Source: Streptantibioticus ferralitis
Lineage (GTDB): Bacteria; Actinomycetota; Actinomycetes; Streptomycetales; Streptomycetaceae
NCBI RefSeq assembly: GCF_029223525.1
Contig: NZ_JARHTQ010000018.1
Location: 62,001-126,000, forward strand
DNA length: 64,000 nucleotides
Direction: 5' to 3'
Under the pieces are notes generated by a model. The model worked only from the letters and a program-made list of their open reading frames with translations, had not been told where the DNA came from and ran no database searches. Each line of letters begins with the position of its first letter. Position 1 is the first letter of the stretch. The position numbers and the translations under genes were made by a program. Below are positions 9,544 to 26,247 of the stretch, piece by piece.

Positions 9544-10011
9544 GCCATCGGGCGGCAAGCGCGGAGGCGGTTCACCGGACACCGGCCATCCGGACAGGAC
9601 GGCACACCGGGCCTCCGCGACTTGCCGGCCGAGGCGTCAGGCAGACAAGCCGAGTTCTGGAACCGCGCGCGGGTAGCCGGAAGCCCCGACTCATAACGCG
9701 GTGCTATGGAGAGGCGAGAGTTCCCGGCAACTGCGGTATCTCGCCATCATGGCCGAGAGGCATCGTACGAGCGGACCCGCTCGGCCCCGTCTGGACCGAA
9801 GGTACGCTCCGCGATCGCGCGAATGATCAGGGAAGCCCATCTTCGGTATCCGCGTGATCTCCCCCCGGGGGGCCTGCGCGAGCCACGCACCGCCCCCATC
9901 GCCTCGCAACGAGCGTGAACCCACGACAGGTTGCGTCGGCGCAACCACCGCCCTGCCTACAGCCATCTGCCGACGATTCGCGGCCCGGACACTCCCCCTC
10001 GGAGGCACGTG
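9544..10011. other. Intergenic region without a recognisable gene
   Basis: About 470 bases between the metallophosphoesterase and the first M6 metalloprotease. The short open frames lack family signatures and consistent codon bias. The TGTGA-type operator found in front of the neighbouring catabolic units is not seen here. GGAGG at 10001-10005 is the ribosome site of the following gene. Confidence 0.6.
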
Positions 10012-11244
10012 ATGCGGTTTCCCGTCGGAGCGAGACGCCCGCTCCCAGCGACGCTCCTGTTCGTACTGTCCGCCCTGCTCGCCTTGGTCCTGGTCCCCGA
10101 CAGCCCCGCCCACGCGTACAACACTGGCCGGTCGCCGTGTGCGCTGCAGGGAACGACAGGTTGGACCGACGAAGGCCAGCAGACCGACTACACCACCTTT
10201 CAGCAGCCGTTCGACCCGTCCGGGCCCTCGTCGTCGAAGACGATCCACGTGGGCATGCTGTACGTGGACTTCCCCGACGCGGCGGGCACCGGCAACCTCG
10301 CCGACTACTACAACCGGCTCTCGCCCGCTGCCAACTGGATGTGGAACGCCTCCCACGGCAGGACCTGGCTCGACATCCAGGCCCCGCTCAACCAGTGGCT
10401 GCGCATGCCGTCGAACGCCACCGCCTACGGCTGGCCCGGCACTCCCCCGTACGCACAGCAACAGCGGTACGTCCTGGACGCCGCCACGGCCGCCTCGAAG
10501 GCCGGGGTGGACCTGTCCCAGTACGACATGCTCTACATCGTCCCCACCACCAACGCGGCCACGATCAGCAACTCGCCCACCTACATCTGGGACCCGAGCA
10601 ACCCTGGCGTGGTCGTCGGCAACACGACGGTGAAATGGGCGGTCACGTTCGGCCAGGACATCTGGGGCGCTTGGGGCTACAAGATCGTCGACCATGAGAC
10701 TTCGCATACCTTCGGCCTGCCCGACCTGTACGCCTTCAGCGGCTCGCGGGACCAGTACGTCGGCGGCTGGGACATCATGGGCTACATCGGCGGTCCCGGC
10801 CCGCAGTACTTCGGCTGGGAGTCCTGGAAGTTCGGCTGGATCGACGACACTCAGGTCTCCTGTCTCTCCACGCAGGGCACGTCCTACCGCACCACACTCA
10901 ACGCCGTGGAGTACGGGCCGACTTCGGGCACCTACAAGCTCGTGGTGCTCAAGACCAGCGCCACCGCGGCCTACGTTGTCGAGTCCCGCAGGTCCGCCTA
11001 CAACGACCCCAGCCTCTGCTCCCAGGGCGTACTGATCTACAAGGTCGACACCTCCACCCAGACGAGCAACGGCCCGATCCAGGTCCTCAGCAACCCCAAC
11101 GCCCCAGCGCCGAAGGGAAGTTGCGAGGCACAGGACATGGACACCTGGCAGCCCGGCCAGAAGTTCACCGATCCCGCCACCAACGTCACGATCTCCGTCG
11201 TCAGCTCCGACCAGTACAACGACACCGTGGACACGTCCATGTGA
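10012..11244 (+). CDS. Secreted M6-family metalloprotease (first copy)
   Basis: A 410-residue secreted protein; ATG 10012 preceded by GGAGG six bases upstream (an in-frame ATG at 9931 has no such site). Sec signal peptide: basic start, hydrophobic stretch LLFVLSALLALVLV, cleavage near AHA at about 36. The zinc site is HETSHTFGLPD beginning at H228, an M6-type HExxHxxG motif with the downstream Asp. The region GGWDIMGYIGGPGPQ is the conserved met-turn neighbourhood. Family members are secreted endopeptidases (immune inhibitor A-like). It is a paralogue of the gene at 18165-19361: the two share GWTDEG..TDY, SPAANWM or APAANWM, and KWAVTFGQD. The position before a peptide transporter suggests a role in extracellular protein digestion. 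Confidence 0.9.
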   Translation: MRFPVGARRPLPATLLFVLSALLALVLVPDSPAHAYNTGRSPCALQGTTGWTDEGQQTDYTTFQQPFDPSGPSSSKTIHVGMLYVDFPDAAGTGNLADYYNRLSPAANWMWNASHGRTWLDIQAPLNQWLRMPSNATAYGWPGTPPYAQQQRYVLDAATAASKAGVDLSQYDMLYIVPTTNAATISNSPTYIWDPSNPGVVVGNTTVKWAVTFGQDIWGAWGYKIVDHETSHTFGLPDLYAFSGSRDQYVGGWDIMGYIGGPGPQYFGWESWKFGWIDDTQVSCLSTQGTSYRTTLNAVEYGPTSGTYKLVVLKTSATAAYVVESRRSAYNDPSLCSQGVLIYKVDTSTQTSNGPIQVLSNPNAPAPKGSCEAQDMDTWQPGQKFTDPATNVTISVVSSDQYNDTVDTSM

Positions 11245-11375: not shown

Positions 11376-11389
11376 TGTGAAATGTCACA
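11376..11389. promoter_or_regulatory. Putative operator TGTGA-N4-TCACA before the peptide transporter operon
   Basis: A perfect five-base dyad TGTGA/TCACA with spacer AATG, 17 bases before the GTG start of the substrate-binding protein. The left half TGTGAAAT matches the TGTGAMAT half-sites at 20409, 20477, 22151 (reverse) and 25489. The FCD-type GntR regulator at 25537 is the best candidate ligand; this is inference from position and sequence. Confidence 0.6.
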
Positions 11390-11406
11390 TCGCAGAGGGA
11401 GTCACT

Positions 11407-13089
11407 GTGAAGGCAAGACGATCCGGGCTGGCCGCACTCGTCGCCCTGGGGCTCGTCGCCACGGCCGGTTGCGGGAGAGCCGACCGTGGCGCTGGCGGAC
11501 AGGGACAGGCCGCGAAGGGCGGCACGCTGCATGTGCTGTCCACCCTTGACCTGGAACACCTCGATCCGGCCCGTAACTACGTGACCTCGTCCGAGGATGT
11601 GGGCCGCCTCATCTACCGGACGCTGACGACCTACGCGGCGGCACCCGGCAAGGCCGGAGGCAGGATCGTGCCGGATCTGGCGACGGACACCGGCCGCCCG
11701 AGCGACGGAGCCCGGACCTGGACCTTCACCCTCAAGCCCGGGACGAAGTTCGAGGACGGACGGCCCATCACCAGCGACGACATCAAGTACGGGGTCGAGC
11801 GGACGTTCGCGGCCGAACTACCCGAAGGGCCGCCGTACGCCCGCATGTGGCTGGCGGGGGGCGAGAAGTACAAGGGACCGTACAAGGACAGGCGGGGGAT
11901 CGCCTCGATCGAGACTCCCGACGACAGGTCGATCGTCTTCAAGCTCAACCACCCGGTGGCCGACTTCGGTTCCGCGGTCTCGCTGCCGATGTTCGCCCCC
12001 GTACCGCCGGACAAGGACACCGGTGTCCGCTACGACAGCAGGCCCTGCTCGTCCGGACCGTACAAGATCGGGGAGTTCGAGCCCAAGAAGCGGCTCACGC
12101 TGGTGCGCAACACCTACTGGAATCCGGCCACCGACTCGGTGCGCAAGGGCCTTCCGGACAAGGTGGTCATCGATCTCAACCTCGATCCGGCCGTGGTCGA
12201 CCAGCGGCTCATCGCCGGTACCGGACCGGACGCCGACGCGGTCGCCTTCGAGCCGATCGGCCCCGCCTCCGTCGGGCCTGTGATGGCGAATCCCGCCGTG
12301 CGCAGGCGACTTGTGACCGGTGGCTCGATCAACACGCGCTACCTCGCCGTAAACACCGCCCACAAGCCGCTGGACGATGTGCGGGTCCGTCAGGCGATCG
12401 CCTACGCGCTCGACAAGGACGCGCTGCGCACCACGCGAGGCGGCCCGGTCGCCGGTGAGCTGGCCACCACGCTGCTGCCGCCCGCCCTCCCCGGCGCCAC
12501 CCCCGACGACCCCTTCCCGAGCCAGGACGGCAAGGGCGACCCGGCCAAGGCCAAGGCTCTCCTCGCCGAGGCGGGCCACGGTTCCGGACTCACCCTCACC
12601 CTCGACACCCCGGCCACCACTGCGGGCAAGGCGCAGGGCGAGGCGGTTCAGGCGTCGCTGGGCCGAGCCGGTATCACCGTGAAGATCAACGCGATCAGTA
12701 CGTCGGCGTTCTACAGCACGGTCGGGAACACAGGCCAGGAACACGAGCTGGTGATCGACGGCTGGACGCCCGACTGGCCCGGCGCCTCCACCTACCTGCC
12801 GACGGTCTTCGACGGGCGGCAGATCACCGCCGAAGGCAACAACAACCGCGCCCAGTACGACGCCGCCAAGGTCGATGCCCGGTTCGACGCGATCGCCAAG
12901 ATGAACGACCCGACGGCCGCCGCCACCGCCTACGGAGAGCTGGCCAAGGAGATCATGCAGGACACACCGGTGGTTCCGTTCCTGTGGGACAAGGCGGCGA
13001 TCCTGATCGGCTCTGATGTCGCCGGTGCCTACGGCCATGTCGCCTACGTCGGTCGGCTGGATCTGGTCTCCCTGGGGCTGCGCAAGTGA
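11407..13089 (+). CDS. Peptide ABC transporter substrate-binding lipoprotein (SBP family 5)
   Basis: A 560-residue extracytoplasmic solute receptor. Start GTG 11407 is chosen because it is followed directly by a lipoprotein signal (KARRSGLAALVALGLV) with lipobox ATAGC, Cys at residue 22, and preceded by GAGGGA; the longer open frame upstream reads through the operator. The body has family 5 hallmarks: EHLDPARNYVTSSEDVGRL near the start, KPGTKFEDGRPITSDDIKYG, and VRQAIAYALDKDALR. The family binds di- and oligopeptides or opines. First of six genes joined by 4-base overlaps (GTGA with the next gene), ending with a proline iminopeptidase, which points to proline-rich peptides as the likely cargo. 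Confidence 0.9.
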   Translation: MKARRSGLAALVALGLVATAGCGRADRGAGGQGQAAKGGTLHVLSTLDLEHLDPARNYVTSSEDVGRLIYRTLTTYAAAPGKAGGRIVPDLATDTGRPSDGARTWTFTLKPGTKFEDGRPITSDDIKYGVERTFAAELPEGPPYARMWLAGGEKYKGPYKDRRGIASIETPDDRSIVFKLNHPVADFGSAVSLPMFAPVPPDKDTGVRYDSRPCSSGPYKIGEFEPKKRLTLVRNTYWNPATDSVRKGLPDKVVIDLNLDPAVVDQRLIAGTGPDADAVAFEPIGPASVGPVMANPAVRRRLVTGGSINTRYLAVNTAHKPLDDVRVRQAIAYALDKDALRTTRGGPVAGELATTLLPPALPGATPDDPFPSQDGKGDPAKAKALLAEAGHGSGLTLTLDTPATTAGKAQGEAVQASLGRAGITVKINAISTSAFYSTVGNTGQEHELVIDGWTPDWPGASTYLPTVFDGRQITAEGNNNRAQYDAAKVDARFDAIAKMNDPTAAATAYGELAKEIMQDTPVVPFLWDKAAILIGSDVAGAYGHVAYVGRLDLVSLGLRK

Positions 13090-14027
13090 CCACGGCCCTT
13101 CCCACGTCGATACCGTCCGGTGTCAGGCGCCGCGCGGGACGGCGGGATGCTTCCCTGTTGCGGCGGCTGCTGGGGCAGCCGTCCTCGGCCCTCACGCTTG
13201 CGGTGGTCTGCCTCCTGGTGGTGGCCGCCATCGCGGCCCCGCTGATCACCTGGCTCGCCGGGACGTCGCCGACCACGTTCCACTCCGACGCGGTGGACCC
13301 GGCGCTCGGCGGACTGCCGCGCGGCGTGGCGGGCGGGATCAGCGCCAGGCACTGGTTGGGAGTCGAGCCGGGGAGCGGCCGGGATGTCCTGGCCCGGGTC
13401 GTCTACGGCGCCAGGATCTCCCTGCTGATCTCCGTGCTCGCCACTGGCCTTTCGGTGGTCCTGGGCACGGCGCTGGGGCTGGCCGCAGGGTTCTTCGGCG
13501 GCTGGGTCGACGCTGTGATCGGCCGGTTGATGGACCTGCTGATGTCCTTTCCCAGCCTGATCTTCATGATCGCGCTGATCTCCGCCGCGCCCGGTGTCGA
13601 CCGGCAGTTGCTCCTCGTCGTCGTGCTCGGGTTCTTCGGCTGGCCCTATGTCGGGCGGCTGGTGCGCGGGCAGGCGATGGTGCTGGCCCGTGGGGAGTTC
13701 GTGGCGGCGGCGCGGGTGCTGGGCGCCTCGCGGCGCGCGCTGCTGGTGCGGGAGGTGCTGCCGAATCTCACCGGACCGGTCCTCGTCGTGGCGACGATGT
13801 CGATACCCAACTACATCGCCACGGAGGCGGGGCTGTCGTTCCTCGGTATCGGGGTGCGCCCGCCGACTCCCTCGTGGGGCCAGATGATCGCCTCCGCCGT
13901 GCCGTGGTACGCCGCCGACCCGATGTACTTCCTGATCCCAGGTGCCTTCCTGTTCGTCACCGTGCTCGCCTTCAACGTGCTCGGTGACGCGGTACGGGAC
14001 GCGCTCGACCCCCGGAGCCGACGGTGA
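13086..14027 (+). CDS. Peptide ABC transporter permease, DppC-type
   Basis: A 313-residue inner-membrane permease with six predicted membrane segments; the N-terminal one (ALTLAVVCLLVVAAIAAPLI) lies at about 36-56. The EAA signature region RGEFVAAARVLGASRRALLV contacts the ATPases. The GEPL-like motif common to DppC proteins is represented by HWLGVEPGSGRDVLARV. The GTG start overlaps the stop of the binding protein gene (GTGA), so expression is coupled. It pairs with the DppB-type permease that follows. Order permease C before B is less common than B-C in classical dpp operons but seen in actinobacteria. Confidence 0.9.
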   Translation: MTTALPTSIPSGVRRRAGRRDASLLRRLLGQPSSALTLAVVCLLVVAAIAAPLITWLAGTSPTTFHSDAVDPALGGLPRGVAGGISARHWLGVEPGSGRDVLARVVYGARISLLISVLATGLSVVLGTALGLAAGFFGGWVDAVIGRLMDLLMSFPSLIFMIALISAAPGVDRQLLLVVVLGFFGWPYVGRLVRGQAMVLARGEFVAAARVLGASRRALLVREVLPNLTGPVLVVATMSIPNYIATEAGLSFLGIGVRPPTPSWGQMIASAVPWYAADPMYFLIPGAFLFVTVLAFNVLGDAVRDALDPRSRR

Positions 14028-15016
14028 TCCTCTACGCGCTGCGCAGGCTGGCCGCTGCGGCGGCGATCCTGCTGGTGATCTGCGCGGCGACCTTCGCGAT
14101 CTTCTATCTGATGCCCGCCGATCCGGCCCAGGGCGCGTGCGGCAAGGCGTGCAGCCCGGAGCGGATCGCGCAGATCCGGGCGACTTTGGGCCTGAACCAC
14201 TCCGTCGTGACGCAGTTCCGCGACTATCTCGTCGGCATCGTGGCCGGCCGCACCTACGGCACGGGAGCGCAGGTGGTCTCCTGCCCGTTCCCCTGCCTGG
14301 GGTTCAGCTTCCAGACGAACGAGCCGGTCTGGCGGATGCTCACCGACCGGCTGCCGGTCAGTGTCTCGATCGCGGTGGGAGCGGCGGTGTTGTGGTTGGC
14401 AGTCGGTGTCACCGCGGGTGTGGTCTCGGCGCTCTGCCGGGGCAGCCTGTGGGACCGGGCGGCGATGGTGGCGGCGCTCGGTGGCGTCTCGCTGCCGATC
14501 TACTTCACCGCGCTGGTCTTGCAGTACCTCCTCGTCGTCAAGGCCGGGCTGCTCCCCTATCCGCAGGCCGTCTCGCTCACCGCCGACCCGGTCGGCTGGG
14601 CGGAGTCGATGGTCATGCCGTGGATCGCGCTGGCGATGCTCTACGCCGGTGTCTACGCCCGGATCACCCGCGGCGAGATGCTGGAGAGCCTCGGCCAGAA
14701 CTACGTGCGTACCGCCCGCGCCAAGGGCCTGCCCGAGCCGACCGTGCTGCGCAGGCACGCGCTTCGCCCGGCGCTGATGCCCATCGTGACCATCTTCGGG
14801 ATGGACCTCGGAGCACTGCTCGGCGGTGCCCTGATCACCGAGTCGGTCTTCGGCCTGCCCGGCGTGGGCAAGCTGGCGGCCGACGCCATCAACAGCGCAG
14901 ACCAGCCGGTGATCCTCGGGGTGACCTTGTTCGCCGCCGGGTTCGTCGTACTCGCCAACGTCTCCGTGGACCTGGTCTACGCGGCTCTGGATCCGAGAGT
15001 GAGGGCCGTCGGATGA
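14024..15016 (+). CDS. Peptide ABC transporter permease, DppB-type
   Basis: A 330-residue permease with an N-terminal membrane segment (RRLAAAAAILLVICAATFAI), a periplasm-like loop holding three Cys-containing motifs (GACGKACS and CPFPC), and five further membrane segments. The EAA loop reads ESLGQNYVRTARAKGLPEP. The C-terminal part GGALITESVFGLPGVGKLAADAI is typical of DppB proteins. GTG start overlaps the previous stop by four bases. The cysteine pairs in the external loop are frequent in actinobacterial members and may form disulfides; this is inference. Confidence 0.9.
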   Translation: MILYALRRLAAAAAILLVICAATFAIFYLMPADPAQGACGKACSPERIAQIRATLGLNHSVVTQFRDYLVGIVAGRTYGTGAQVVSCPFPCLGFSFQTNEPVWRMLTDRLPVSVSIAVGAAVLWLAVGVTAGVVSALCRGSLWDRAAMVAALGGVSLPIYFTALVLQYLLVVKAGLLPYPQAVSLTADPVGWAESMVMPWIALAMLYAGVYARITRGEMLESLGQNYVRTARAKGLPEPTVLRRHALRPALMPIVTIFGMDLGALLGGALITESVFGLPGVGKLAADAINSADQPVILGVTLFAAGFVVLANVSVDLVYAALDPRVRAVG

Positions 15017-15861
15017 CCCTGCTGACCGTACGCGGCCTGAGCGTTGACTTCCTTTCCGGTGTACGCGCCGTGGACGGGCTAGACCTGGAGTTGGCCGCCG
15101 GGCGGGTGCTCGGCGTGGTCGGTGAGTCCGGGAGCGGGAAGTCCGTGACAAGTCTCGCCGTTATGGGGCTGCTGCCGCCGGATGCCCGGGTGACTGGTGA
15201 AGTCCGGTTTGACGGCCGGGAGTTGAATGGCGTCGGCCAGCGGACGCTGCGCGGGTTGCGCGGCAACCGGATCGCGATGATCTTCCAGGATCCGCTGTCG
15301 TGTCTCAACCCGTACTACCCGGTGGGCTTCCAGGTCGCCGAGGCATACCGGGCCCACCGCCGTGCCGGTCGCCGGGCAGCCCACCGCGTCGCCGTGCGGA
15401 TGCTGGAACGGGTGGGCATCCCCGAGCCCGAGCGGCGCGCCCGTGCCTATCCGCACGAGTTCTCCGGCGGGATGCGGCAGCGCGTGATGATCGCGATGGC
15501 GCTCTGCCTGGAACCCGACCTGTTGATCGCCGACGAGCCGACCACGGCGCTCGACGTGACCGTGCAGGCCCAGATCCTCGACCTGCTACGGGATCTGCGG
15601 GAGCGGTCCGGCACCGCGATCATGCTCATCACCCATGACATGGGGGTGGTAGCCGGACTCGCCGACGATGTCGTGGTGATGTACGGCGGCCGTGCCGTCG
15701 AGCGGGGCACGGTCCGCGACGTGTTCTACCGACCGCGTGAGACCTACACCAAGGGGCTGCTCGCCTGCGTGCCACGGGTTGACGGGCCGCTGCCGGTTCG
15801 GCTCCCCACTCTGCGGACACCGGTCACGGCTGCGGGCGAGGCATCGGAGGTGACGGTGTGA
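15013..15861 (+). CDS. Peptide ABC transporter ATP-binding protein, DppD-type
   Basis: A 282-residue ABC ATPase. Walker A GESGSGKS at 37-44, Q-loop IFQDP, signature EFSGGMRQR, Walker [13 protein letters not shown], and H-loop LITHDMGV are all intact. The C-terminal part is short for the oligopeptide family and lacks the cysteine-rich motif present in its partner. The ATG start overlaps the preceding stop (ATGA). It should form a heterodimer with the next gene product to drive import. Confidence 0.9.
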
Positions 15862-16844
15862 ACCCACCGGTGCTCGAAGCGAGCGATCTGGTCAAGCGCT
15901 TCCCCGTACGGCACGGACTGACCCGACGGCTGGTCGGGCACGTTACGGCGGTTGACGGTGTGTCACTGTGCGTGGAGCCAGGGCAGACGCTCGGCGTGGT
16001 CGGCGAGTCCGGCTGCGGCAAGTCAACCGTGGCGCGGCTGCTGACCCGGCTGGTCGAGCCCACCTCCGGCACCATCCGCGTAGCCGGAAGGGAACTGACC
16101 GCGCTGGACGAAGTGGCGCTGCGGCCGGTCCGCCGCGACCTGCAGATGGTCTTCCAGGATCCGTTCTCCTCACTCAACCCACGGCAGACCGTCCAGCAGA
16201 TCCTTGCCTCTCCCTACCTCTACCAAGGGCTGAAACCGAAGGAGCCGGTGGAGGAACTGCTGGAGCGGGTGGGCCTACGGCCGGAGCACGCCGCCCGCTA
16301 TCCGCACGAGTTCTCCGGCGGTCAGGCCCAACGCGTCGGTATCGCAAGGGCGCTGGCGCCTCGCCCGAAGCTGGTCGTGTGTGACGAACCCGTCTCCGCC
16401 CTCGACGTGTCGGTGCAGGCGCAGATCCTCAACCTGCTCAAGGACCTTCAGGAGGAGTACGGGCTGGCATACGTGTTCATCGCCCACGACCTCGGCGTCG
16501 TCCGCCAGATCAGCGCCCGCGTCGCCGTCATGTACCTGGGCGCCATCGTGGAGACGGCCGACCGCGACACATTGTTCTCCCACGCCGCGCACCCGTACAC
16601 CCACGCTCTGCTCTCGGCCGTACCGCTGCCCGATCCGGACGCCGAACGCTCCCGCGAGCGGATCACGCTCCGCGGCGACCTCCCCAGCCCGCTGCATCCG
16701 CCCAGCGGATGCCCCTTCCGCACCCGCTGCCCGAAGGCGGCCGATCGTTGCGCCGCCGAGCGGCCCGCGCTGCAGGCGATCGCCACGGGCCACGAGGTCG
16801 CCTGCCACTACCCCGAACCGCTGTCCGCAGAGAGGACTTCATGA
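15858..16844 (+). CDS. Peptide ABC transporter ATP-binding protein, DppF-type
   Basis: A 328-residue ABC ATPase. Walker A GESGCGKST begins at residue 49; signature EFSGGQAQRVGIARAL, Walker B LVVCDEPVSALD and H-loop FIAHDLGV follow. The C-terminal extension has the oligopeptide-family motif HPPSGCPFRTRCPKAADRC, known in some relatives to bind an iron-sulfur cluster. GTG start at 15858 overlaps the DppD stop (GTGA). Second nucleotide-binding subunit of the importer. Confidence 0.9.
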   Translation: MNPPVLEASDLVKRFPVRHGLTRRLVGHVTAVDGVSLCVEPGQTLGVVGESGCGKSTVARLLTRLVEPTSGTIRVAGRELTALDEVALRPVRRDLQMVFQDPFSSLNPRQTVQQILASPYLYQGLKPKEPVEELLERVGLRPEHAARYPHEFSGGQAQRVGIARALAPRPKLVVCDEPVSALDVSVQAQILNLLKDLQEEYGLAYVFIAHDLGVVRQISARVAVMYLGAIVETADRDTLFSHAAHPYTHALLSAVPLPDPDAERSRERITLRGDLPSPLHPPSGCPFRTRCPKAADRCAAERPALQAIATGHEVACHYPEPLSAERTS

Positions 16845-18127
16845 GCCTGCGCCACGCCTACCGCCTGCCCGGACTCGCGGTGGCCGACCGCATTTTCACC
16901 GTGCCGCTGGACCACGCCGACCCCGCCGGCGCGTCGGTCGAGGTGTTCGCACGCGAAGTCTCCGACCCGGTCCGGGCCGGAGAGCGGCTGCCCTGGCTAC
17001 TCTACCTCCAGGGCGGCCCCGGAGGCAAGTCACCACGACCACTCAACGCCACCACCGGCTGGCTGGCCCATGCCGTCAAGACCCACCGAGTGCTCCTGCT
17101 CGACCAGCGCGGCACCGGCCGCAGTACTCCGGTCACGGCCCGTTCGGCCGAACAGTACGCATCCGCCAGGGAGTTGGCCGACGATTTGGCGTTCTTTCGC
17201 GCCGACTCCATCGTCGCCGACGCTGAGCTGATACGACATCAGCTCTGTGGCGGCGAGCCCTGGGAAACCCTGGGCCAGAGCTACGGCGGCTTCGTCACCC
17301 TCACCTACCTCTCCCAGGCCCCCGAGGGACTGCGCGCCTGCTACATCACCGGCGGCCTGCCCGGCCTGGACGCCACCGCCGACCATGTCTACGCGGCCAC
17401 CTATCCGAAGGTCCAGGAGAAGGTGACCGCCTACTACCGCCGCTACTCCCACGACCGCGAACTGGTCCGGCACATCGCCGACCTGCTCGACCGCGAGCCG
17501 GTCCACCTGCCCGACGGCGACCGGCTCACCGTTCGGCGCCTGCGCACCCTCGGCCTGATGCTGGGCATGGGCGACGGCTTCGAGCGGCTGCACTGGCTGC
17601 TGGACGAGGCGATCGGCGTCGGCGGTCAGCTCTCGGCGACCTTCCTCCAGCAGGTGATGAACCTGACCGGCTTCACCGACAACCCGCTCTTCGCCGTCCT
17701 CCAGGAGTCGGTCTACGGACAGGGCGGCAGGCCGACGGGGTGGGCCGCCGCCCGTGCCATGGCCACCCACCCGGAGTTCGCCGAGGACGCCGATCCGCTG
17801 CTGTTCACCGGCGAGATGTTCTACCCCTGGATGTTCCAGGAGATCGCCGGGCTCAGGCCGTTCGCCGAAGCCGCCGACCTGCTGGCCCAACGGTCCGACT
17901 GGCCCGCGCTGTACTCCCCGTCGCGGCTGGCCGCCAACCAGGTGCCGGTGGCGGCGGCCGTCTACCACGACGACATGTACGTCCCCGCCGAACTCTCCCT
18001 GGACACCGCGCGCTCGGTCGGCTCACTGCGCGCCTGGGTCACCAACGAGTGGGAACACGACGGCGTCACCGCATCCGGCGACCGCGTCCTGGCCCGCCTG
18101 ATGGACATGGCCGCCGGACGGGCCTGA
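16841..18127 (+). CDS. Proline iminopeptidase-like alpha/beta hydrolase (peptidase S33)
   Basis: A 428-residue cytoplasmic serine hydrolase. Oxyanion motif GGPGG near residue 58, the family-specific LLDQRGTGRS, and nucleophile elbow GQSYGG with S147 place it in the prolyl aminopeptidase (S33) family, which removes N-terminal proline or hydroxyproline from peptides. The C-terminal YHDDMYVP and EWEHDG supply the likely acid and His of the triad. Its ATG overlaps the stop of the transporter ATPase (ATGA): it is the sixth gene of a coupled operon, so peptides taken up by the transporter are probably its substrates. This supports a proline- or hydroxyproline-rich diet such as collagen fragments. 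Confidence 0.9.
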   Translation: MSLRHAYRLPGLAVADRIFTVPLDHADPAGASVEVFAREVSDPVRAGERLPWLLYLQGGPGGKSPRPLNATTGWLAHAVKTHRVLLLDQRGTGRSTPVTARSAEQYASARELADDLAFFRADSIVADAELIRHQLCGGEPWETLGQSYGGFVTLTYLSQAPEGLRACYITGGLPGLDATADHVYAATYPKVQEKVTAYYRRYSHDRELVRHIADLLDREPVHLPDGDRLTVRRLRTLGLMLGMGDGFERLHWLLDEAIGVGGQLSATFLQQVMNLTGFTDNPLFAVLQESVYGQGGRPTGWAAARAMATHPEFAEDADPLLFTGEMFYPWMFQEIAGLRPFAEAADLLAQRSDWPALYSPSRLAANQVPVAAAVYHDDMYVPAELSLDTARSVGSLRAWVTNEWEHDGVTASGDRVLARLMDMAAGRA

Positions 18128-18164: not shown

Positions 18165-19361
18165 ATGTCCAGATCTCCCTTCAGCCGTCGTCCCGTCGCC
18201 GCTGGGGCCGCCGCGGCCCTGGTCCTCTCGCTCTTCGCGCTGGTCCCCACCGCGACCGCAGCGCCTCAGCGGCACACCAGCGCCGCCGGCGACTGCGCCC
18301 TGCCTGGCAGGACCGGTTGGACGGACGAGGGCCACAACACCGACTACACCCAGTTCCAGCGGCCCATCGGCGCCAAGCACGTCCTCATGCTGTTCGTCGA
18401 CTTCCCCGACGCCCAAGCCTCCGGCTCCACCACGCCCTACTACCGGCAACTCGCCCCAGCCGCGAACTGGATGAAGCGTGACTCCTACGGACGGGCCAGG
18501 CTGGACATCACCCCGCTACGCCGCTGGATACGGATGCCGCAGGCGTCCACCAGCTACGGCTTCCAACGCGGAATAAGCTTCCAGCAGCACGAGTTGTACG
18601 TACGGCAGGCCGTCGAAGCGGCCGAGCCGTACATAGACTTCTCCGGCTACGACATGCTGTACATCGTCCCGGCCAAGTCCGCGTCCGCGATCAGTTTCTC
18701 ACCGACGTACCTGTACGACCCGACCACCAACGGCATCGTGGCGAATGGCAAGCGCGTCAAGTGGGCGGTCACCTTCGGCCAGGACATGTGGCACTGGGGC
18801 TTCAAGGTCGCCGATCACGAGACCAGCCACACCTTCGGCCTGCCCGACCTCTACGCGTTCACCGGCACCGACTACCACCGTTTCGTGGGCGGTTGGGACC
18901 TGATGGGCAACATCGCCGGGGCCGCCCCGCAGCATTTCGGCTGGGAGCGCTGGAAGTTCGGGTGGATGGACGACAACCAGGTCGCCTGCCTGAACTCGTC
19001 CGGAAGCCGCACCATCCGCCTGACGGCGGTCGAAAGCCCCGGCGGAACGAAGATCGCGGTGATCCGCACCGGTGAGACCACCGCCTATGTCGCCGAGTCC
19101 CGCAGGGCCGTCGGCGCGGACGACAAGGCGTGTTCCACGGGCGTGCTCGTCTACAAGGTCGACTCGTCCACGCAGACCGGCGACGGTCCGATCCAGGTGG
19201 TGGACGGCAACTCCCACGCCACCCCGCCCAAGGGCTGCACGCCCCTGGACATGGCGGCCCTCCACCGCGGGCAGTCCTTCGACGACCCCGCGACGGGAGT
19301 GCGGATCAGCGTCGAAAGAAGCAACGCGCTCCAGGACGAGATCTCCATCACCAAGCGGTAG
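18165..19361 (+). CDS. Secreted M6-family metalloprotease (second copy)
   Basis: A 398-residue paralogue of the protease at 10012-11244. The Sec signal peptide (RRPVAAGAAAALVLSLFALV) ends near TATAA at about 33. Zinc-binding HETSHTFGLPD begins at H218, followed by GGWDLMGNIAG. AAGAGGCAAG precedes the ATG at 18165 and is probably a weak ribosome site; the gene begins 37 bases after the iminopeptidase and is likely part of the same transcript. The C-terminal domain has a conserved Cys pair region (VACLNSSG, KACSTGVLVYKVD). Its last 14 bases overlap the 3' end of the convergent lysR gene. Confidence 0.9.
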   Translation: MSRSPFSRRPVAAGAAAALVLSLFALVPTATAAPQRHTSAAGDCALPGRTGWTDEGHNTDYTQFQRPIGAKHVLMLFVDFPDAQASGSTTPYYRQLAPAANWMKRDSYGRARLDITPLRRWIRMPQASTSYGFQRGISFQQHELYVRQAVEAAEPYIDFSGYDMLYIVPAKSASAISFSPTYLYDPTTNGIVANGKRVKWAVTFGQDMWHWGFKVADHETSHTFGLPDLYAFTGTDYHRFVGGWDLMGNIAGAAPQHFGWERWKFGWMDDNQVACLNSSGSRTIRLTAVESPGGTKIAVIRTGETTAYVAESRRAVGADDKACSTGVLVYKVDSSTQTGDGPIQVVDGNSHATPPKGCTPLDMAALHRGQSFDDPATGVRISVERSNALQDEISITKR

Positions 19362-20349
19362 CCTCACCCGACATGAGCTGACCCGGATCGGACAACTGCG
19401 CCGAACGGGGATGGCGTTCGCGCCACCGGGCGTAGACCGGCGTGCGTGCGCAGGTGGCCAGATAGCCCTCGCCCACCCTGCGGACGATGTCGTCGCCGCG
19501 GGCGGCGAGTGGGCCGTCGCGGTGCCAGGCCAGCACGTGGCGGTACCACACCGGAGTACCGGCCAGCGGGCGGACCGCGATGCCAGGGACCTCGATGAAG
19601 GTGGCCTGGCAGAGGCTGACCGCCAGCCCCGCGCGCACGATCTCGATGAGCTGCCGCCCCTCGGCCTCGTACGGGGCGTGGGGCTGGCGGTCCATCAGCG
19701 CGAAGACGGTCGCCCAGTACTCCCGGGTGCGGTCGCTGTCGGGGTGCGGCATGGCCCAGTCATCCTCCAGGAGCTGGTTCAGGCTCACTTCCTCCTCGGC
19801 GGCCAGCGGGTGGGTGGCCGGGAGCAGGGCGAAGACGGGCTCGGTGACGAGTGGGCGCAGGACGACGCCACCGTGCGGCGGGAGTTCGTGGCCGGGGTTG
19901 TCCCCGACGACAGCCGCCTCCAGGCGTCCTGCGGCCAGGTCGTCAAGGAGCGGCGACGGGGAGTACTGGCACCGGGTCGACACCTCCGCCGCGGGGAGCA
20001 CGCCCCGCACCGCCAGGACGAGGTCGGCCAGCAGGGGGGCGCCCACCGAACCGAGGCGGATGCGGTCGGGGGCGCCTCGGGGGCGGGTGGCGCGTGCGGT
20101 GTCGGCCAGCAGGTCGTCAATGCCGGGCAAGATGGCGCGCGCCCGGGTGAGCACCAGTTCCCCGAACGGCGTGGGCACCACCCCGGCCTGCCCGCGCTCG
20201 AAGATCGTCCCGCCCAGCATGACCTCGATGCGCCGCAGCTGGGCACTGAGTCCCGGCTGGGTCATATGCAGCGACACCGCGGCGCGGGTGAGACTTCCGG
20301 CCTCCGCGATCGCGCAGACCACCCTCAGATGCCGTACCTCCAGGTCCAT
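19348..20349 (-). CDS. LysR-family transcriptional regulator
   Basis: A 333-residue regulator starting at ATG 20349. N-terminal winged HTH at about 1-60 (EVRHLRVVCAIAEAGSLTRA, then LHMTQPGLSAQLRRIE), followed by a periplasmic-binding-like effector domain. It is divergent from the oxidoreductase remnant at 20494; the 144-base gap holds a perfect palindrome at 20408-20423. Upstream in-frame codons reading through that palindrome are not credible as coding. It probably controls the divergent hydroxyproline genes or the peptide operon, though the shared TGTGA sites fit the GntR gene better. Confidence 0.88.
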   Translation of the reverse strand: MDLEVRHLRVVCAIAEAGSLTRAAVSLHMTQPGLSAQLRRIEVMLGGTIFERGQAGVVPTPFGELVLTRARAILPGIDDLLADTARATRPRGAPDRIRLGSVGAPLLADLVLAVRGVLPAAEVSTRCQYSPSPLLDDLAAGRLEAAVVGDNPGHELPPHGGVVLRPLVTEPVFALLPATHPLAAEEEVSLNQLLEDDWAMPHPDSDRTREYWATVFALMDRQPHAPYEAEGRQLIEIVRAGLAVSLCQATFIEVPGIAVRPLAGTPVWYRHVLAWHRDGPLAARGDDIVRRVGEGYLATCARTPVYARWRERHPRSAQLSDPGQLMSGEATAW

Positions 20350-20407: not shown

Positions 20408-20423
20408 GTGTGACATGTCACAC
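20408..20423. promoter_or_regulatory. Perfect 16-base palindromic operator GTGTGACATGTCACAC
   Basis: A perfect inverted repeat between lysR and the divergent oxidoreductase, 59 bases before the lysR start and about 70 before the oxidoreductase start. Its core TGTGA-N4-TCACA equals the site at 11376 and is the best match in the set of five. Candidate site for the GntR regulator of the cluster. Confidence 0.65.
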
Positions 20424-20476
20424 GCGGCGTTCTACCGACCCCGTGGTGACAGGCCCCTTGGAAACCCCTAGTGCAA

Positions 20477-20490
20477 TGTGAAATATTACT
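20477..20490 (+). promoter_or_regulatory. Second TGTGA-type half-operator abutting the oxidoreductase start
   Basis: TGTGAAATATTACT carries the intact half TGTGAAAT and a degenerate right half. It lies three bases before GTG 20494. There is no ribosome site before that start, so a leaderless transcript is possible, in which case the site would cover the promoter. It is nearly identical to the reverse complement of 22151-22164. Confidence 0.5.
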
Positions 20491-20493
20491 GAC

Positions 20494-21107
20494 GTGTCTA
20501 TGACAAGCTGCTCGGACGTCATCGTCGTCGGAGCTGGAATGGTCGGCGCCGCCTGCGCCTATTACGCCTCTCGTCGCGGCCTCTCCGTCACCGTGATCGA
20601 CCGCGGCCCCGTCGCTGGCGGGACCACGGGCGCGGGCGAAGGGAACTTGCTGGTCTCCGACAAGGAGCCGGGACCGGAGTTGGAACTGGCCCTGCTTTCC
20701 GCGCGGTTGTGGCGTGAGCTGGCCGAACCGCTCCCGCTGGAATTCGAGTTCGAGGCCAAGGGTGGTCTGGTCGTCGCCTTCGACGCGGCCGGACTGGACG
20801 CCCTGCGGGAGTTCGCGACTGGACAGGAGAAGGCAGGGGTAGTGGCGGAGGAGGTCCCGGCCGACCGCCTGGGCGATCTGGAGCCGCACCTCACCCCCGC
20901 CGTGGCGGGCGGCTTCCACTACCCGCAGGACGCCCAGGTCCAACCAGCGCTCGCCGCAGCCCACTTGCTCCGCGCCTCGGGCGCCCACGTCCGCCTCGGT
21001 GAGGAGGTCGCCGGGATCCTCACCGCCCCGAGCGGTGAGGTGACGGGCGTGCGGACCAGTTCCGGTGCCGTCCACGCCCCGCACGTGGTGAACGCGCCCG
21101 GTGCCGT
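20494..21107 (+). pseudogene. N-terminal 205 residues of a DadA-type FAD oxidoreductase (D-hydroxyproline dehydrogenase subunit), truncated
   Basis: Start GTG 20494 or ATG 20500. The product begins with the Rossmann motif VIVVGAGMVGAACAYYASRR and continues with family features DRGPVAGGTTGAGEGN and GGFHYPQDAQVQPALAAAHL, as in glycine/D-amino-acid oxidases of hydroxyproline clusters. At VVNAPG the match ends and the frame runs into nonsense, while the continuing frame becomes a different protein (next entry). The missing part is about 170 residues of this subunit. In intact relatives the enzyme oxidises cis-4-hydroxy-D-proline. With the FAD-binding C-terminal region absent, it should be inactive unless the junction is a sequencing or assembly error. 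Confidence 0.8.
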
Positions 21108-22106
21108 GCGGTCCTGCTCGCGACTGGTGCCTATGAGCGGCAACTGCCGTTTCCCGGCTGGACGGTGCCGGGGGTGGTGGCTGCCGGAGGTGCGCAGGCG
21201 ATGCTCAAGTCGGGGCTGGTGCTGCCCGGTCAGCGGGTCGTCGTCGCGGGGAGTGGGCCGCTGCTGCTCGCCGTCGCCTCCTCACTCGCCGCCGCCGGAG
21301 CCCGCGTCCCCGCCGTCGTCGAGGCATCCGGCTACCTCGGGTACGCGCGCCACCGAGTGCCACTGCACAGCCGCAGCGCGGTCACCGAAGTCCACGGCAC
21401 CGACCGGGTGCAGGCCGTGACCGTCTCCCGGGTCGGCAGGGACTGGAGGCCGGTGCCAGGAACGGGCCGCCGCATCGTATGCGACGCGCTGGCCGTGGGC
21501 CATGGGCTGGTCCCGCAGATCGAACTGGCCACCAGCCTCGGTTGCGCGACCCGGCGTACGCCGGACGCGACGCACGCCCTGGTCCTTGACAGCCTCCAGG
21601 AGACTTCCGTGCCCGGCGTGTGGGCGGCGGGTGAGACCGGCGGGGTCGGCGGAGCCCAACTTACGCAAGCAGAAGGCGAGTTGGCGGCCATCGCGGTGGC
21701 CTCCCGACTGCGCCGGAAGCTCGTTGACGGAGCGCGCGTTCAGCGGCTTCGCCGCCGCCGTGACCGGATGCGCGCCTTCGCCGATGCCATGGCCAACGCG
21801 CACGCACCCCGCCCGGGCTGGACCGACTGGCTCGGCGATGACACCGACGTATGCCGCTGTGAGGAGGTGACGGCACGACGCATCCGCGAGGCGGTCGCCG
21901 ATCTCGGCGCCGAGGACGTCCGTACCGTCAAGCTCCTCACCCGGGCCGGGATGGGCTGGTGCCAGGGTCGCATGTGCGGAACGGCCGTGGCCTGCCTGGC
22001 CGCCAGCGGCAGCGACGGAAACGTACCGCCCTCCCCCGAGCGCCGACCGCTCGCGGTACCCGTACCACTCGCCGTGCTCGGCTCACTGGCCGAGGCCGAC
22101 GATTAG
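21108..22106 (+). pseudogene. C-terminal two thirds of an HcnB-type NAD/FAD oxidoreductase subunit, truncated at its 5' end
   Basis: In the frame from 21108 the product starts abruptly at AVLLATGAYERQLPFPGW, which in intact HcnB/alpha-subunit dehydrogenases lies about 130 residues in. It then reads GGAQAMLKSGLVLPGQRVVVAGSG and so on to a C-terminal domain with CRCEE and GWCQGRMCG, cysteines that bind a 2Fe-2S cluster in this family. It has no start codon or ribosome site of its own; GTG 21165 is internal. The upstream frame belongs to the DadA-type remnant. The usual small 2Fe-2S subunit gene between the two is also missing, which indicates one deletion fusing both genes out of frame. Confidence 0.8.
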
Positions 22107-22186: not shown

Positions 22187-23095
22187 ATGACCACCACTTT
22201 CTGGAACGCCGAACGTCCCTGGCGCGGCGTCATGGTCGCCACCGCGCTTCCGCTGCGCAAGGACCTCTCCATCGACTACGGCGCTTACGCCGAGCACGTC
22301 CACTGGCTGATCGAGAACGGCTGCGATGGCGTCGTCCCCAACGGCTCCCTCGGCGAGTACCAGACCCTCACCGCCGAGGAACGCGCCCGAGTGGTGCGTA
22401 CCGCCGTCGAGGCGGCGGGTGACGGGGCCCGGGTGATGCCGGGTGTGTCCGCCTACGGCAGTGCGGAGGCCCGCCGGTGGGCAGAGCAGGCTGCGGAGGC
22501 GGGCTGCGGCTCCGTGCTGCTGCTGCCGCCCAACGCCTACCGTGCGGACGAGGCCGCCGTACGCGCCCATTACGCCGAGGTGGCCAGGGCGGGGCTGCCG
22601 GTCGTCGCGTACAACAACCCCATCGACACCAAGGTCGACCTCGCTCCGCCCCTGCTCGCCCAGCTCCACAGCGGCGGCAGCGTGGTAGCGGTCAAGGAGT
22701 TCACCGGTGATGTGCGCAGGGCCTACGAGATCGCCGAACTCGCCCCCGGACTGGATCTGTTGATCGGTGCGGACGACGTGCTCCTCGAACTCGCCATCGC
22801 CGGAGCCGTCGGCTGGATCGCCGGATACCCCAACGCCTTTCCCGCCACCTGCTCCGAACTCTACCGACGCGCTGTCGCAGGGGACCTGGAGACGGCACTG
22901 CCCCTGTACCGGTCGCTCCATCCGCTGCTGCGCTGGGATTCCAAGACCGAGTTCGTGCAGGCCATCAAGGCATCCATGGACATCGTCGGCCGTCATGGCG
23001 GCCCCACCCGCCCGCCGCGCTCACCGCTCACCGGTCAGACCGAGGCCGCGGTGCTCGCCGCCACCGAGAAGGCCGTCGCCGAGGGCCGCCACTGA
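22187..23095 (+). CDS. Dihydrodipicolinate synthase-family protein, probable 1-pyrroline-4-hydroxy-2-carboxylate deaminase
   Basis: A 302-residue TIM-barrel enzyme starting at ATG 22187 with GAAGGG upstream. Schiff-base lysine K170 lies in VVAVKEFTGD, and the substrate region reads NGSLGEYQTLT. In place of aspartate semialdehyde synthesis, DHDPS-family members in hydroxyproline clusters deaminate Pyr4H2C to alpha-ketoglutarate semialdehyde. The assignment rests on the neighbours: proline racemase-family epimerase 17 bases downstream and an aldehyde dehydrogenase after that. First gene of the 22187-25493 operon. Confidence 0.82.
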   Translation: MTTTFWNAERPWRGVMVATALPLRKDLSIDYGAYAEHVHWLIENGCDGVVPNGSLGEYQTLTAEERARVVRTAVEAAGDGARVMPGVSAYGSAEARRWAEQAAEAGCGSVLLLPPNAYRADEAAVRAHYAEVARAGLPVVAYNNPIDTKVDLAPPLLAQLHSGGSVVAVKEFTGDVRRAYEIAELAPGLDLLIGADDVLLELAIAGAVGWIAGYPNAFPATCSELYRRAVAGDLETALPLYRSLHPLLRWDSKTEFVQAIKASMDIVGRHGGPTRPPRSPLTGQTEAAVLAATEKAVAEGRH

Positions 23096-23112: not shown

Positions 23113-24117
23113 GTGCGCACCCGTCATGTCTTCCATGCCATCGACTCGCACACCGAGGGCATGCCAACTCGCGTCATCACCGGGGGCGTCGGGGTGATAC
23201 CCGGCGCCACGATGGCCGATCGCAGACTCCACTTCGTCAAGCACCTGGACCACATCCGTACGCTGCTGATGTACGAGCCACGTGGCCACGCCTCCATGAG
23301 CGGCGCGATACTCCAACCCCCGACCAGCCCGGACGCTGACTACGGGGTGCTGTTCATCGAGGTCTCCGGTGTGCTGCCGATGTGCGGGCACGGCACCATC
23401 GGGGTCGCCACCGTCCTGGTGGAGACCGGCATGGTCGAGGCCAACGAGCCGGTCACCACGGTCCGGTTGGAGACTCCGGCGGGCCTGGTCCGGGTCGACG
23501 TACGCGTCGAGAACGGTGCGGCCAAGGCCGTCACGTTCACCAACGTGCCCGCGTTCTGCCTCGGCCTGGACCGCGAGGTCGAGGTGCCGGGGTACGGGAC
23601 GGTGCGCTACGACCTGGCCTTCGGCGGCAACTTCTACGCCTTCGTCGAACTCGACGCGCTGCGGCTGCCGTTCGACCGCTCCCGCAAGGACGAACTGCTC
23701 ACCGCGGGTCTGGCCGTCATGGACGCCATCAACGCCTCGCCGTGCCGCCCGGTGCACCCGGAACGGCCGGAGATCAGCGGTCTCAAACATGTCTACCTCG
23801 TCGCGCCCGGCTCGGACGCACACCGGTCCCGGCATGCCATGGCGATCCACCCGGGCTGGTTCGACCGTTCGCCCTGCGGCACCGGCACGTCGGCCCGGAT
23901 GGCTCAGCTGCACGCACGCGGCGAACTCCCCCTCCACCGCGACTTCGTCAATGAGTCCTTCATCGGCACCGAGTTCACCGGTCGGCTCGTCGAGGAGACC
24001 CGGGTCGGTGGCCTGCCTGCCGTCGTCCCCACCATCACCGGACGGGCCTGGATCACCGGCACCGCCCAGTACTTCCTCGACCCGGACGACCCCTTCCCCG
24101 GAGGCTTCCTCCTGTGA
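23113..24117 (+). CDS. 4-hydroxyproline 2-epimerase (proline racemase family)
   Basis: A 334-residue cytoplasmic epimerase; GTG 23113 with GAAGGGA upstream. Both catalytic cysteines of the proline racemase family are present: C91 in MCGHGT and C255 in SPCGTGTSA. Having both cysteines (rather than one changed to Ser or Thr) indicates racemase/epimerase activity and not the dehydratase branch. The early SHTEGMPTRV motif is conserved. The enzyme would convert trans-4-hydroxy-L-proline to cis-4-hydroxy-D-proline. The stop overlaps the aldehyde dehydrogenase start (GTGA). Confidence 0.88.
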   Translation: MRTRHVFHAIDSHTEGMPTRVITGGVGVIPGATMADRRLHFVKHLDHIRTLLMYEPRGHASMSGAILQPPTSPDADYGVLFIEVSGVLPMCGHGTIGVATVLVETGMVEANEPVTTVRLETPAGLVRVDVRVENGAAKAVTFTNVPAFCLGLDREVEVPGYGTVRYDLAFGGNFYAFVELDALRLPFDRSRKDELLTAGLAVMDAINASPCRPVHPERPEISGLKHVYLVAPGSDAHRSRHAMAIHPGWFDRSPCGTGTSARMAQLHARGELPLHRDFVNESFIGTEFTGRLVEETRVGGLPAVVPTITGRAWITGTAQYFLDPDDPFPGGFLL

Positions 24118-25493
24118 CCACGTCCCCAGCCGTCATCTCACGCAATCCGGCAGATCCGTCCGACGTCCTGCTGCGGGTCCTGGCACCCGGCGCCGCCGCG
24201 GTCGCCGGTGCCGTCGCCGAGGCCCGTGCCGCCCAACCGGGATGGCTGGGCGATGGCGCGGGCGCCCGCTCGGCGGCCCTGGCCGCCGTCGCCGACGCCG
24301 TCGAGGCCGCGGCGGGCGAGCTGGCCGCACTCGCCGTGCGCGAAGTGGGCAAGCCGCTTACCGAAGCCCGGGCCGAGGTGGCACGTACCGCCGCCATCTG
24401 GCGGTACTACGCCCAGGCCCCGTACGAGCCGACCGGCGCTGTCCACGAAGCCTTCGGCGGCCCCGGGCTGCTGCTCACCCGCCGCCGCCCGCACGGCGTC
24501 GCGGGCCTGATCACCCCCTGGAACTTCCCCTTCGCCATCCCGAGTTGGAAGGCGGCCCCGGCGCTGGCGGTCGGCAACACGGTCGCCGTCAAACCCGCGC
24601 CCGAAGCCACGACATGCGCACTGCGCCTCGCCGAGATCGTCCAACAGGCGCTTCCGCGTGGGGTGTTCACCGTGATTCCCGGCGGCGCCGTCGAAGGCGG
24701 CGCCGTGATCACGTCCTCGGATGCCGTCTCCTTCACCGGCTCCACCACGGTCGGCGACGAGGTGGTGCGTACCGCGACCACCCGGGGCATCCCGGTCCAG
24801 GCAGAGATGGGCGGGCTCAACGCGGCGATTGTCCTCCCCGACGCGGACATCGAACGGGCCGCCGCCCACATCGCCGCCGCGATCGCCGGATACGCGGGAC
24901 AGAAGTGCACGGCAACTAGCAAGGTCATCCCGGTCGGCGCCGCCCTCGACCCGCTGCGCGAGGCCCTCGCCGAAGCGCTGCGGGCACTCCCGGTGGGCGA
25001 CCCGGCCGACCCGGCCACCGTCTGCGGACCGCTCATCAGCGAGCAGGCCCGGGACCGCGTCGGCCAGGCATGTCAGGGCCTGACGGTACTGGCTGGCGGC
25101 AACGCCCCCGGCCGGCCCGGCTGGTACGCGGCTCCGACCCTGGTCGAGAAGGTGCCGCCAGACCACCGCCTGCTACAGGAGGAGGTCTTCGGGCCCGTCG
25201 CCGCGCTGCTGCCCGCGGACGACCTGGCCCACGCGGTACGGATCGCCAACCGCGTCCCGTACGGGCTGGTCACCTCGGTCCACACCGCCAGCCTGGACGC
25301 GGCTCTGCGCGGGCTCGACCATCTCGACACCGGCATGGTCCGGGTCAACGCCCCGTCCACCGGCGTCGACTTCCATCTGCCGTTCGGCGGCACCAAGGCG
25401 TCCAGCCATGGACCACGCGAACAGGGCCGAGCCGCCCTGGAGTTCTACACCTGCACCCGGACGTACACACTGACCCCCGCCACAGCAATGTGA
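24114..25493 (+). CDS. Aldehyde dehydrogenase, probable alpha-ketoglutarate semialdehyde dehydrogenase
   Basis: A 459-residue NAD(P)-dependent dehydrogenase. Catalytic C265 in GQKCTA and general base E231 in QAEMGG are present, with cofactor motif PWNFPFAIPSWK and FTGSTTVGDEV. The GTG start overlaps the epimerase stop. In the hydroxyproline route it would oxidise alpha-ketoglutarate semialdehyde to 2-oxoglutarate, feeding the TCA cycle. It is somewhat shorter than the usual 480-500 residues, mostly at the N-terminus. Its stop codon lies inside the palindrome GCAATGTGACATTGC, so the gntR operator overlaps the end of the gene. Confidence 0.85.
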   Translation: MTTSPAVISRNPADPSDVLLRVLAPGAAAVAGAVAEARAAQPGWLGDGAGARSAALAAVADAVEAAAGELAALAVREVGKPLTEARAEVARTAAIWRYYAQAPYEPTGAVHEAFGGPGLLLTRRRPHGVAGLITPWNFPFAIPSWKAAPALAVGNTVAVKPAPEATTCALRLAEIVQQALPRGVFTVIPGGAVEGGAVITSSDAVSFTGSTTVGDEVVRTATTRGIPVQAEMGGLNAAIVLPDADIERAAAHIAAAIAGYAGQKCTATSKVIPVGAALDPLREALAEALRALPVGDPADPATVCGPLISEQARDRVGQACQGLTVLAGGNAPGRPGWYAAPTLVEKVPPDHRLLQEEVFGPVAALLPADDLAHAVRIANRVPYGLVTSVHTASLDAALRGLDHLDTGMVRVNAPSTGVDFHLPFGGTKASSHGPREQGRAALEFYTCTRTYTLTPATAM

Positions 25494-25502
25494 CATTGCG
25501 CG
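25485..25502. promoter_or_regulatory. Palindromic site before gntR (autoregulation candidate)
   Basis: GCAATGT-G-ACATTGC is a perfect 7-base inverted repeat around one central base (25485-25499) and includes the half-site TGTGACAT at 25489. It overlaps the stop of the aldehyde dehydrogenase and ends 34-37 bases before the gntR start. Confidence 0.55.
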
Positions 25503-25536: not shown

Positions 25537-26247
25537 ATGGGGCACCTGAAAGCGCGCAATCTCATCACCGCCCACGAGCGGTTGCGCGACCAGGTCGCCC
25601 ACGCCTTGCGCGCCGCGCTGATCTCCGGTGAGCTCCGCCCCGGCGAGTTGTACTCGGCGCCGGGGCTCGCTGAGGACTTCGGCGCCTCCGCGACACCAGT
25701 ACGCGAGGCGATGCTCGGCCTGGCCCGCGAGGGGCTGGGCGAGCCGGTCCGCAACAAGGGGTTCCGGATGACCGAGCGCGACCTCGACCAGTACACCGAG
25801 ATCCGTACCCTGATCGAGGTTCCCACCGTCGGCCGGATCACCCGCACCGCATCCGCCGGGAAGTTGGAGGCGCTTCGCCCCGTAGCCGATGAGATCGTGC
25901 GCGCCGCACGCCGCCACGACCTCATCGGCTATCTGGAAGCCGACCGCCAGTTCCACCTCAGCCTGTCGGCGCTCTCCGGCAACGAACGTCTCGTAGAGAC
26001 CGTCGGTGATCTACGCAAGCGCTCACGACTGTACGGGTTGACGACCCTCGACGAGGGCAGCCAGCTGCTTTCGTCAGCCGAAGAACACCTGGAGCTACTG
26101 GAGTTGATGCTCGCTGGAGACGCTAAGCAGGCCGAGAAGTGCATGACCCGCCACCTCGGCCACGTCCGCTCCCTGTGGGCCGAAGGCAAAGGCAACGAGA
26201 ACCAGCCCCAGCGCCGCCCGAAGAGAAGGCCGGGCACGTCCCGCTGA
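25537..26247 (+). CDS. GntR-family (FadR/FCD-type) transcriptional regulator
   Basis: A 236-residue regulator starting at ATG 25537. N-terminal winged HTH (SAPGLAEDFGASATPVREAM at about 41-60), then an all-helical FCD ligand domain with probable metal-binding His residues (DRQFHLSLS, EEHLELLELM, MTRHLGHVRS). FCD regulators often control amino or organic acid catabolism and bind short palindromes. It follows the catabolic operon by 43 bases with its own operator-like palindrome. It is the likely regulator of the TGTGAMAT sites in front of the transporter and catabolic operons, with a hydroxyproline-pathway intermediate as probable effector; that link is inference. Confidence 0.88.
   Translation: MGHLKARNLITAHERLRDQVAHALRAALISGELRPGELYSAPGLAEDFGASATPVREAMLGLAREGLGEPVRNKGFRMTERDLDQYTEIRTLIEVPTVGRITRTASAGKLEALRPVADEIVRAARRHDLIGYLEADRQFHLSLSALSGNERLVETVGDLRKRSRLYGLTTLDEGSQLLSSAEEHLELLELMLAGDAKQAEKCMTRHLGHVRSLWAEGKGNENQPQRRPKRRPGTSR

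Follow-up and report, generated by a model that had tools for sequence, protein, structure and literature searches.

Does a bacterium whose hydroxyproline operon has lost its dehydrogenase also lose the pathway, or can the missing step be supplied from elsewhere in the genome? The question is raised by a 64,000 nucleotide stretch of Streptantibioticus ferralitis DNA (contig NZ_JARHTQ010000018.1, positions 62,001 to 126,000 of the forward strand, hereafter the window), in which the start of one dehydrogenase subunit gene runs into the interior of another. The window operon matches the HypR-controlled hydroxyproline operon of Streptomyces coelicolor, which serves a route that passes from an epimerase to a D-hydroxyproline dehydrogenase, a deaminase and an alpha-ketoglutarate semialdehyde dehydrogenase (PMC6608401). 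On the evidence set out below, the window probably holds a degraded three-subunit (alpha-beta-gamma) D-hydroxyproline dehydrogenase of the LhpBEF/SCO6289-6291 type, lying in an otherwise conserved operon and redundant to a second cluster on contig C33 of the same genome.

Two deletions in the dehydrogenase genes

The locus begins with a remnant of the dadA-type gene for the dehydrogenase beta subunit (20494-21103, + strand), of which the first ~203 codons are left. This 204-residue remnant is 82% identical to residues 1-204 of the intact protein in G001, which together with G002 formed the pair of genomes of the same genus used for comparison. It matches PF01266 (E 9.5e-41) over positions 1-203 of 353, and as the in-frame DAO profile stops there the window contains no full DadA-type beta subunit. 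The second part is a remnant of the hcnB-type alpha subunit gene (21105-22106, + strand), which is 83% identical to residues 115-478 in G001 and matches PF07992 from profile position 102 as well as PF04324. The FAD-binding N-terminus of the alpha subunit and 24 internal residues are gone, and the C-terminal BFD [2Fe-2S] domain (Fer2_BFD) is kept. The two remnants are joined in different reading frames that are both still open; the dadA frame continues past the junction into ~100 residues of unrelated sequence, and within the hcnB frame GTG/ATG codons occur from 21165 on. The small 2Fe-2S gamma subunit gave no tblastn match in the window. With this subunit gone, the second half of the beta subunit lost and the alpha subunit deprived of its FAD-binding N-terminus, no functional enzyme is expected from the remnants.

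In both G001 and G002 the operon is found with its gene order unchanged and with dadA, the small 2Fe-2S gene and hcnB intact. BLAST and alignment to these genomes place the junction of the first deletion at 21103-21105 (+ strand), close to the ~21,107 first proposed. The missing DNA runs from dadA codon ~203 through the whole 2Fe-2S gene to hcnB codon ~145-146, a loss of ~1,260 bp with G001 as reference or ~1,335 bp with G002, the latter figure being larger because the G002 spacer is longer. The join reads GTGCC in the window, and GTACC occurs in G001 at either end of the sequence lost here. A further deletion, absent from the original prediction, lies 250 bp past the first (junction 21347-21353, + strand, from alignment to the relatives) and removes 72 bp (24 codons) in frame from the hcnB remnant; both of its edges encode Arg-His in G001. 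The 24 residues are present in 81/81 homologous loci that cover the place. Junction homology is ~5 bp at the first deletion and ~7 bp at the second, and the remaining ~4.8 kb of the operon aligns to G001 and G002 without large gaps. Among 80 loci of the genome collection, all those on a sufficiently long contig have dadA, the 2Fe-2S gene and hcnB adjacent to one another, and none of the 80 has the fused form seen in the window.

The original prediction, made from the window alone, described a DadA N-terminus fused out of frame to the interior of HcnB, and both the Pfam profiles and the alignments to relatives bear this out. Its statement that the rest of DadA, the 2Fe-2S subunit and the HcnB N-terminus are gone agrees with the comparison to G001 and G002. 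It put the missing stretch at about 1.5 kb, more than either comparison gives.

The rest of the operon and its regulatory sites

As had been predicted, the flanking pathway genes are whole. Downstream of the remnants, all on the + strand, lie a DHDPS-family gene (22187-23095, TIGR00674-like) for a predicted pyrroline-4-hydroxy-2-carboxylate deaminase, which is intact in all three genomes of the genus, a 4-hydroxyproline 2-epimerase gene of the proline racemase family (23113-24117), an aldehyde dehydrogenase gene (24114-25493) for a predicted alpha-ketoglutarate semialdehyde dehydrogenase, and a hypR-type GntR/FCD regulator gene (25537-26247, PF00392 and PF07729) that is 87% identical in G001/G002. 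The deaminase, epimerase and GntR/FCD regulator follow each other in the order of HypR operons, an arrangement conserved in G001/G002. The genome has no other close copy of the semialdehyde dehydrogenase; the best match elsewhere in it reaches 40% identity. On the other side a divergent LysR-type regulator gene (19380-20349, - strand) adjoins the operon.

A HypR-like operator, TGCAATGTGAA, is found just 5' of the dead dadA start (20472-20482, + strand) and departs at one position from the published HypR site family (PMC6608401); this 11-bp motif is in the expected place before dadA, and its count across the window is not above chance. The near-palindromic HypR-like operator in front of hypR, GCAATGTGACATTGC (25485-25499, + strand), is an exact match and stands well above chance, with 0.08 matches expected at up to 2 mismatches. 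The word ATGTCAC before the deaminase gene is kept in all three genomes of the genus, such motifs occurring at chance frequency over the window, and it gives a weak hint that the downstream genes might be expressed without the dead ones. The interval that separates the LysR gene from the dead dadA holds a perfect palindrome, TGTGACATGTCACA (20408-20423), which is not there in G001/G002 and is a possible operator.

Another HypR-like near-palindrome, GAAATGTCACATCGC, occurs further upstream (11379-11393), directly before an oligopeptide ABC transporter operon (11407-16844) whose first gene encodes an SBP_bac_5 protein. Near the transporter are an alpha/beta hydrolase gene (16841-18127) and two similar secreted-peptidase-like genes (10006-11244 and 18165-19361). 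Together with the near-palindrome, these genes suggest an island for the uptake of collagen peptides and the use of hydroxyproline.

Substitutions in the broken and intact genes

Changes were polarised with up to seven outgroups, and the lineage of the window was compared with G001/G002. Replacement changes number 31 in the broken genes and 30 in the intact genes of the window lineage, and 35 and 92 respectively in G001/G002 together, a nonsynonymous excess in the window's broken genes (Fisher p = 0.003). For synonymous changes the same comparison shows no difference (p = 0.23). The N:S contrast falls short of significance, whether broken and intact genes are compared within the window lineage (31:30 vs 30:40, p = 0.38) or the broken genes are compared between window and relatives (p = 0.32). 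We therefore did not use the dN/dS ratio to prove decay, as only the replacement count was significant; an unpolarised count of changes looked stronger than the polarised one. As the N:S contrast alone is not significant, decay is either recent or weakly shown, and the counts lend modest support to relaxed selection after what would be a fairly recent loss.

A second cluster in the same genome

A search of the genome for another D-hydroxyproline dehydrogenase, as had been proposed, found a second complete cluster at C33:257120-262054. It consists of genes for an XRE-family regulator, dadA, a 2Fe-2S protein, hcnB, a deaminase and an epimerase. The three subunit genes are full-length frames (402 aa for dadA, 106 aa for the 2Fe-2S protein and 493 aa for hcnB) with matches to DAO, Fer2_4, Pyr_redox_2 and Fer2_BFD, the last slightly under its cut-off, and they are accompanied by DHDPS-family and Pro_racemase genes, the epimerase being 72% identical to that of the window. 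The regulator has a cupin-like tail, a domain read from the sequence. Between the C33 type and the window type the DadA proteins are about 52% and the HcnB proteins about 44% identical. The C33-type set was not found in G001/G002, which carry only the window-type set, and the 19 kb around the C33 cluster contain no aldehyde dehydrogenase like that of the window. The C33 cluster can plausibly supply the dehydrogenase in trans, with a predicted activity on cis-4-hydroxy-D-proline, and a full route could then be made up of the C33 dehydrogenase, either set of deaminase and epimerase, and the window aldehyde dehydrogenase. The same contig encodes a second HypR-like regulator (G000:C33:374506-375198, G000 being the genome of the window), 72% identical to that of the window and ~113 kb from the C33 cluster.

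Genuine loss or artefact

The original prediction left open whether the fusion was a real deletion or an assembly collapse between similar sequences, and the three genes could indeed be intact in the organism if the draft assembly, which is in 110 contigs, had dropped ~1.26 kb and 72 bp. Repeat collapse requires a repeat of read or k-mer length, and the two separate deletions have homology far too short for this. When the missing stretch of G001 was searched against the window's own genome only chance-like matches of 26-35 bp were found, so no stray contig holds the missing DNA. The alignment of the rest of the operon to the relatives without large gaps and the excess of replacement changes in the broken genes also speak against an assembly or sequencing artefact, which we regard as unlikely. 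Collapse was accordingly rejected as the main reading, and a genuine deletion is favoured as far likelier, given that the missing DNA does not occur in the rest of the assembly, that only a few bp of homology occur at the junctions and that the lesions are two and separate. Recombination involving the C33 copy was also considered and rejected, as the two are too diverged, with matches limited to 192 bp at 72% and a further 41 bp at 86%.

If the deletions are real, the fused locus could in principle encode a new working protein, either a truncated flavoprotein or a chimeric enzyme, a reading for which the open frames and the internal GTG/ATG codons in hcnB speak. A chimera is hardly credible, since the parts are in different frames and the dadA frame enters unrelated sequence, the alpha fragment has lost the FAD-binding N-terminus and 24 residues that are kept universally, and no relative shows the form; neither frames nor domains permit one. 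In its deletion alternative, the original prediction also had the pathway left one step short. The operon's own dehydrogenase is destroyed, but all three subunits, a deaminase and an epimerase are present on C33, and the epimerase, deaminase and semialdehyde dehydrogenase of the window remain well conserved, so that a strain unable to use hydroxyproline is very unlikely. The reading that we retain is a degraded operon segment whose predicted function is probably duplicated elsewhere.

Distribution across the family

Taking a DadA identity of 70% or more to the C33 type as the mark of the second cluster type, with type boundaries that are our own, 9/395 sampled genomes of the family carry it: the genome of the window (the C33 cluster) and G009, G294, G108, G254, G067, G169, G293 and G383, classed together as the type with an XRE-cupin regulator. 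A search with an intact window-type DadA found a full-length window-type dadA in 0/9 of these, a small and related sample whose members are phylogenetically non-independent. Two dehydrogenase sets are rare in any case (3/304 genomes with a match at E <= 1e-90). Remnants of the window-type dadA persist in two of the nine, the 204-residue remnant of the window and one of 51 residues in G009, which belongs to another genus. G067, G293 and G169, where the second cluster type is present and a window-type dadA is lacking, keep HypR-like regulators (62-65% identical).

The G009 fusion joins codons 1-49 of dadA to the C-terminal portion of a semialdehyde dehydrogenase gene that carries a frameshift; beside it are an intact hypR and the divergent LysR-type gene that also adjoins the operon in the window (L155, G009:C37, 351-2703). 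That contig also holds the second-type cluster of G009, at a distance of ~30 kb and with an aldehyde dehydrogenase gene after it. The G009 deletion of the window-type operon is larger than that of the window, and as the break points differ the two look like separate events.

How the operon may have decayed

The findings can be ordered into a sequence of events, although both this order and the idea that redundancy permitted the loss are only probable. The arrival or retention of the second cluster would have made the native dehydrogenase redundant. A deletion of ~1.26 kb between very short direct repeats would have fused dadA out of frame to hcnB, and another between very short direct repeats would have removed the in-frame 72 bp from hcnB. 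Loss of the dehydrogenase was probably tolerated, with the C33 cluster supplying the enzyme in trans. The locus would then represent a cluster replacement caught midway, in which the redundant dehydrogenase decays and the deaminase, epimerase, semialdehyde dehydrogenase and hypR are conserved; the remaining genes may still have a role in the pathway, most of all the one for the semialdehyde dehydrogenase, an enzyme missing from the second cluster.

We propose more tentatively, at somewhat less than even chances, that the XRE-regulated cluster repeatedly displaces the native HypR-regulated one across the Streptomyces family, the native operon being dismantled piecemeal with duplicated genes going first and unduplicated ones kept. 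Displacement of this kind would fit the semialdehyde dehydrogenase being kept in the window and lost in G009, whose new cluster precedes an aldehyde dehydrogenase gene. Pseudogenisation of a redundant operon segment is an ordinary and known type of event, and the recurring pattern of displacement is mildly interesting. Such midway snapshots are useful in that they reveal the dispensable steps and the sequence in which an operon's genes are lost. The locus also warns against judging a catabolic pathway to be broken from one locus, and offers a simple test of whether enzymes from two differently regulated clusters cooperate.

Comparison with known systems

A limited literature search found no pseudogenised hydroxyproline operons in Streptomyces. 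The nearest known system is SCO6289-SCO6294 of Streptomyces coelicolor (PMC6608401), which has the same gene content and order as the window operon, namely the beta, gamma and alpha subunits, the DHDPS-family deaminase, the epimerase and then the GntR/FCD regulator, and which has ATGTCAC-type sites similar to the candidate sites of the window. The window differs in that its three dehydrogenase genes are destroyed by the two deletions and in having the aldehyde dehydrogenase gene between epimerase and regulator. LhpBEF of Pseudomonas aeruginosa, as cited in PMC6608401, likewise comprises a DadA-type flavoprotein, a small 2Fe-2S protein and a larger flavoprotein with a BFD-like [2Fe-2S] domain, whereas the window copy is a pseudogene; the S. 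coelicolor subunits are only distantly related to LhpBEF, at 34-41% identity (PMC6608401). The XRE-cupin type on C33 has the same set of enzymes as the window type minus the semialdehyde dehydrogenase, and is distinguished by its different regulator and, in the genome of the window, by having no adjoining aldehyde dehydrogenase gene.
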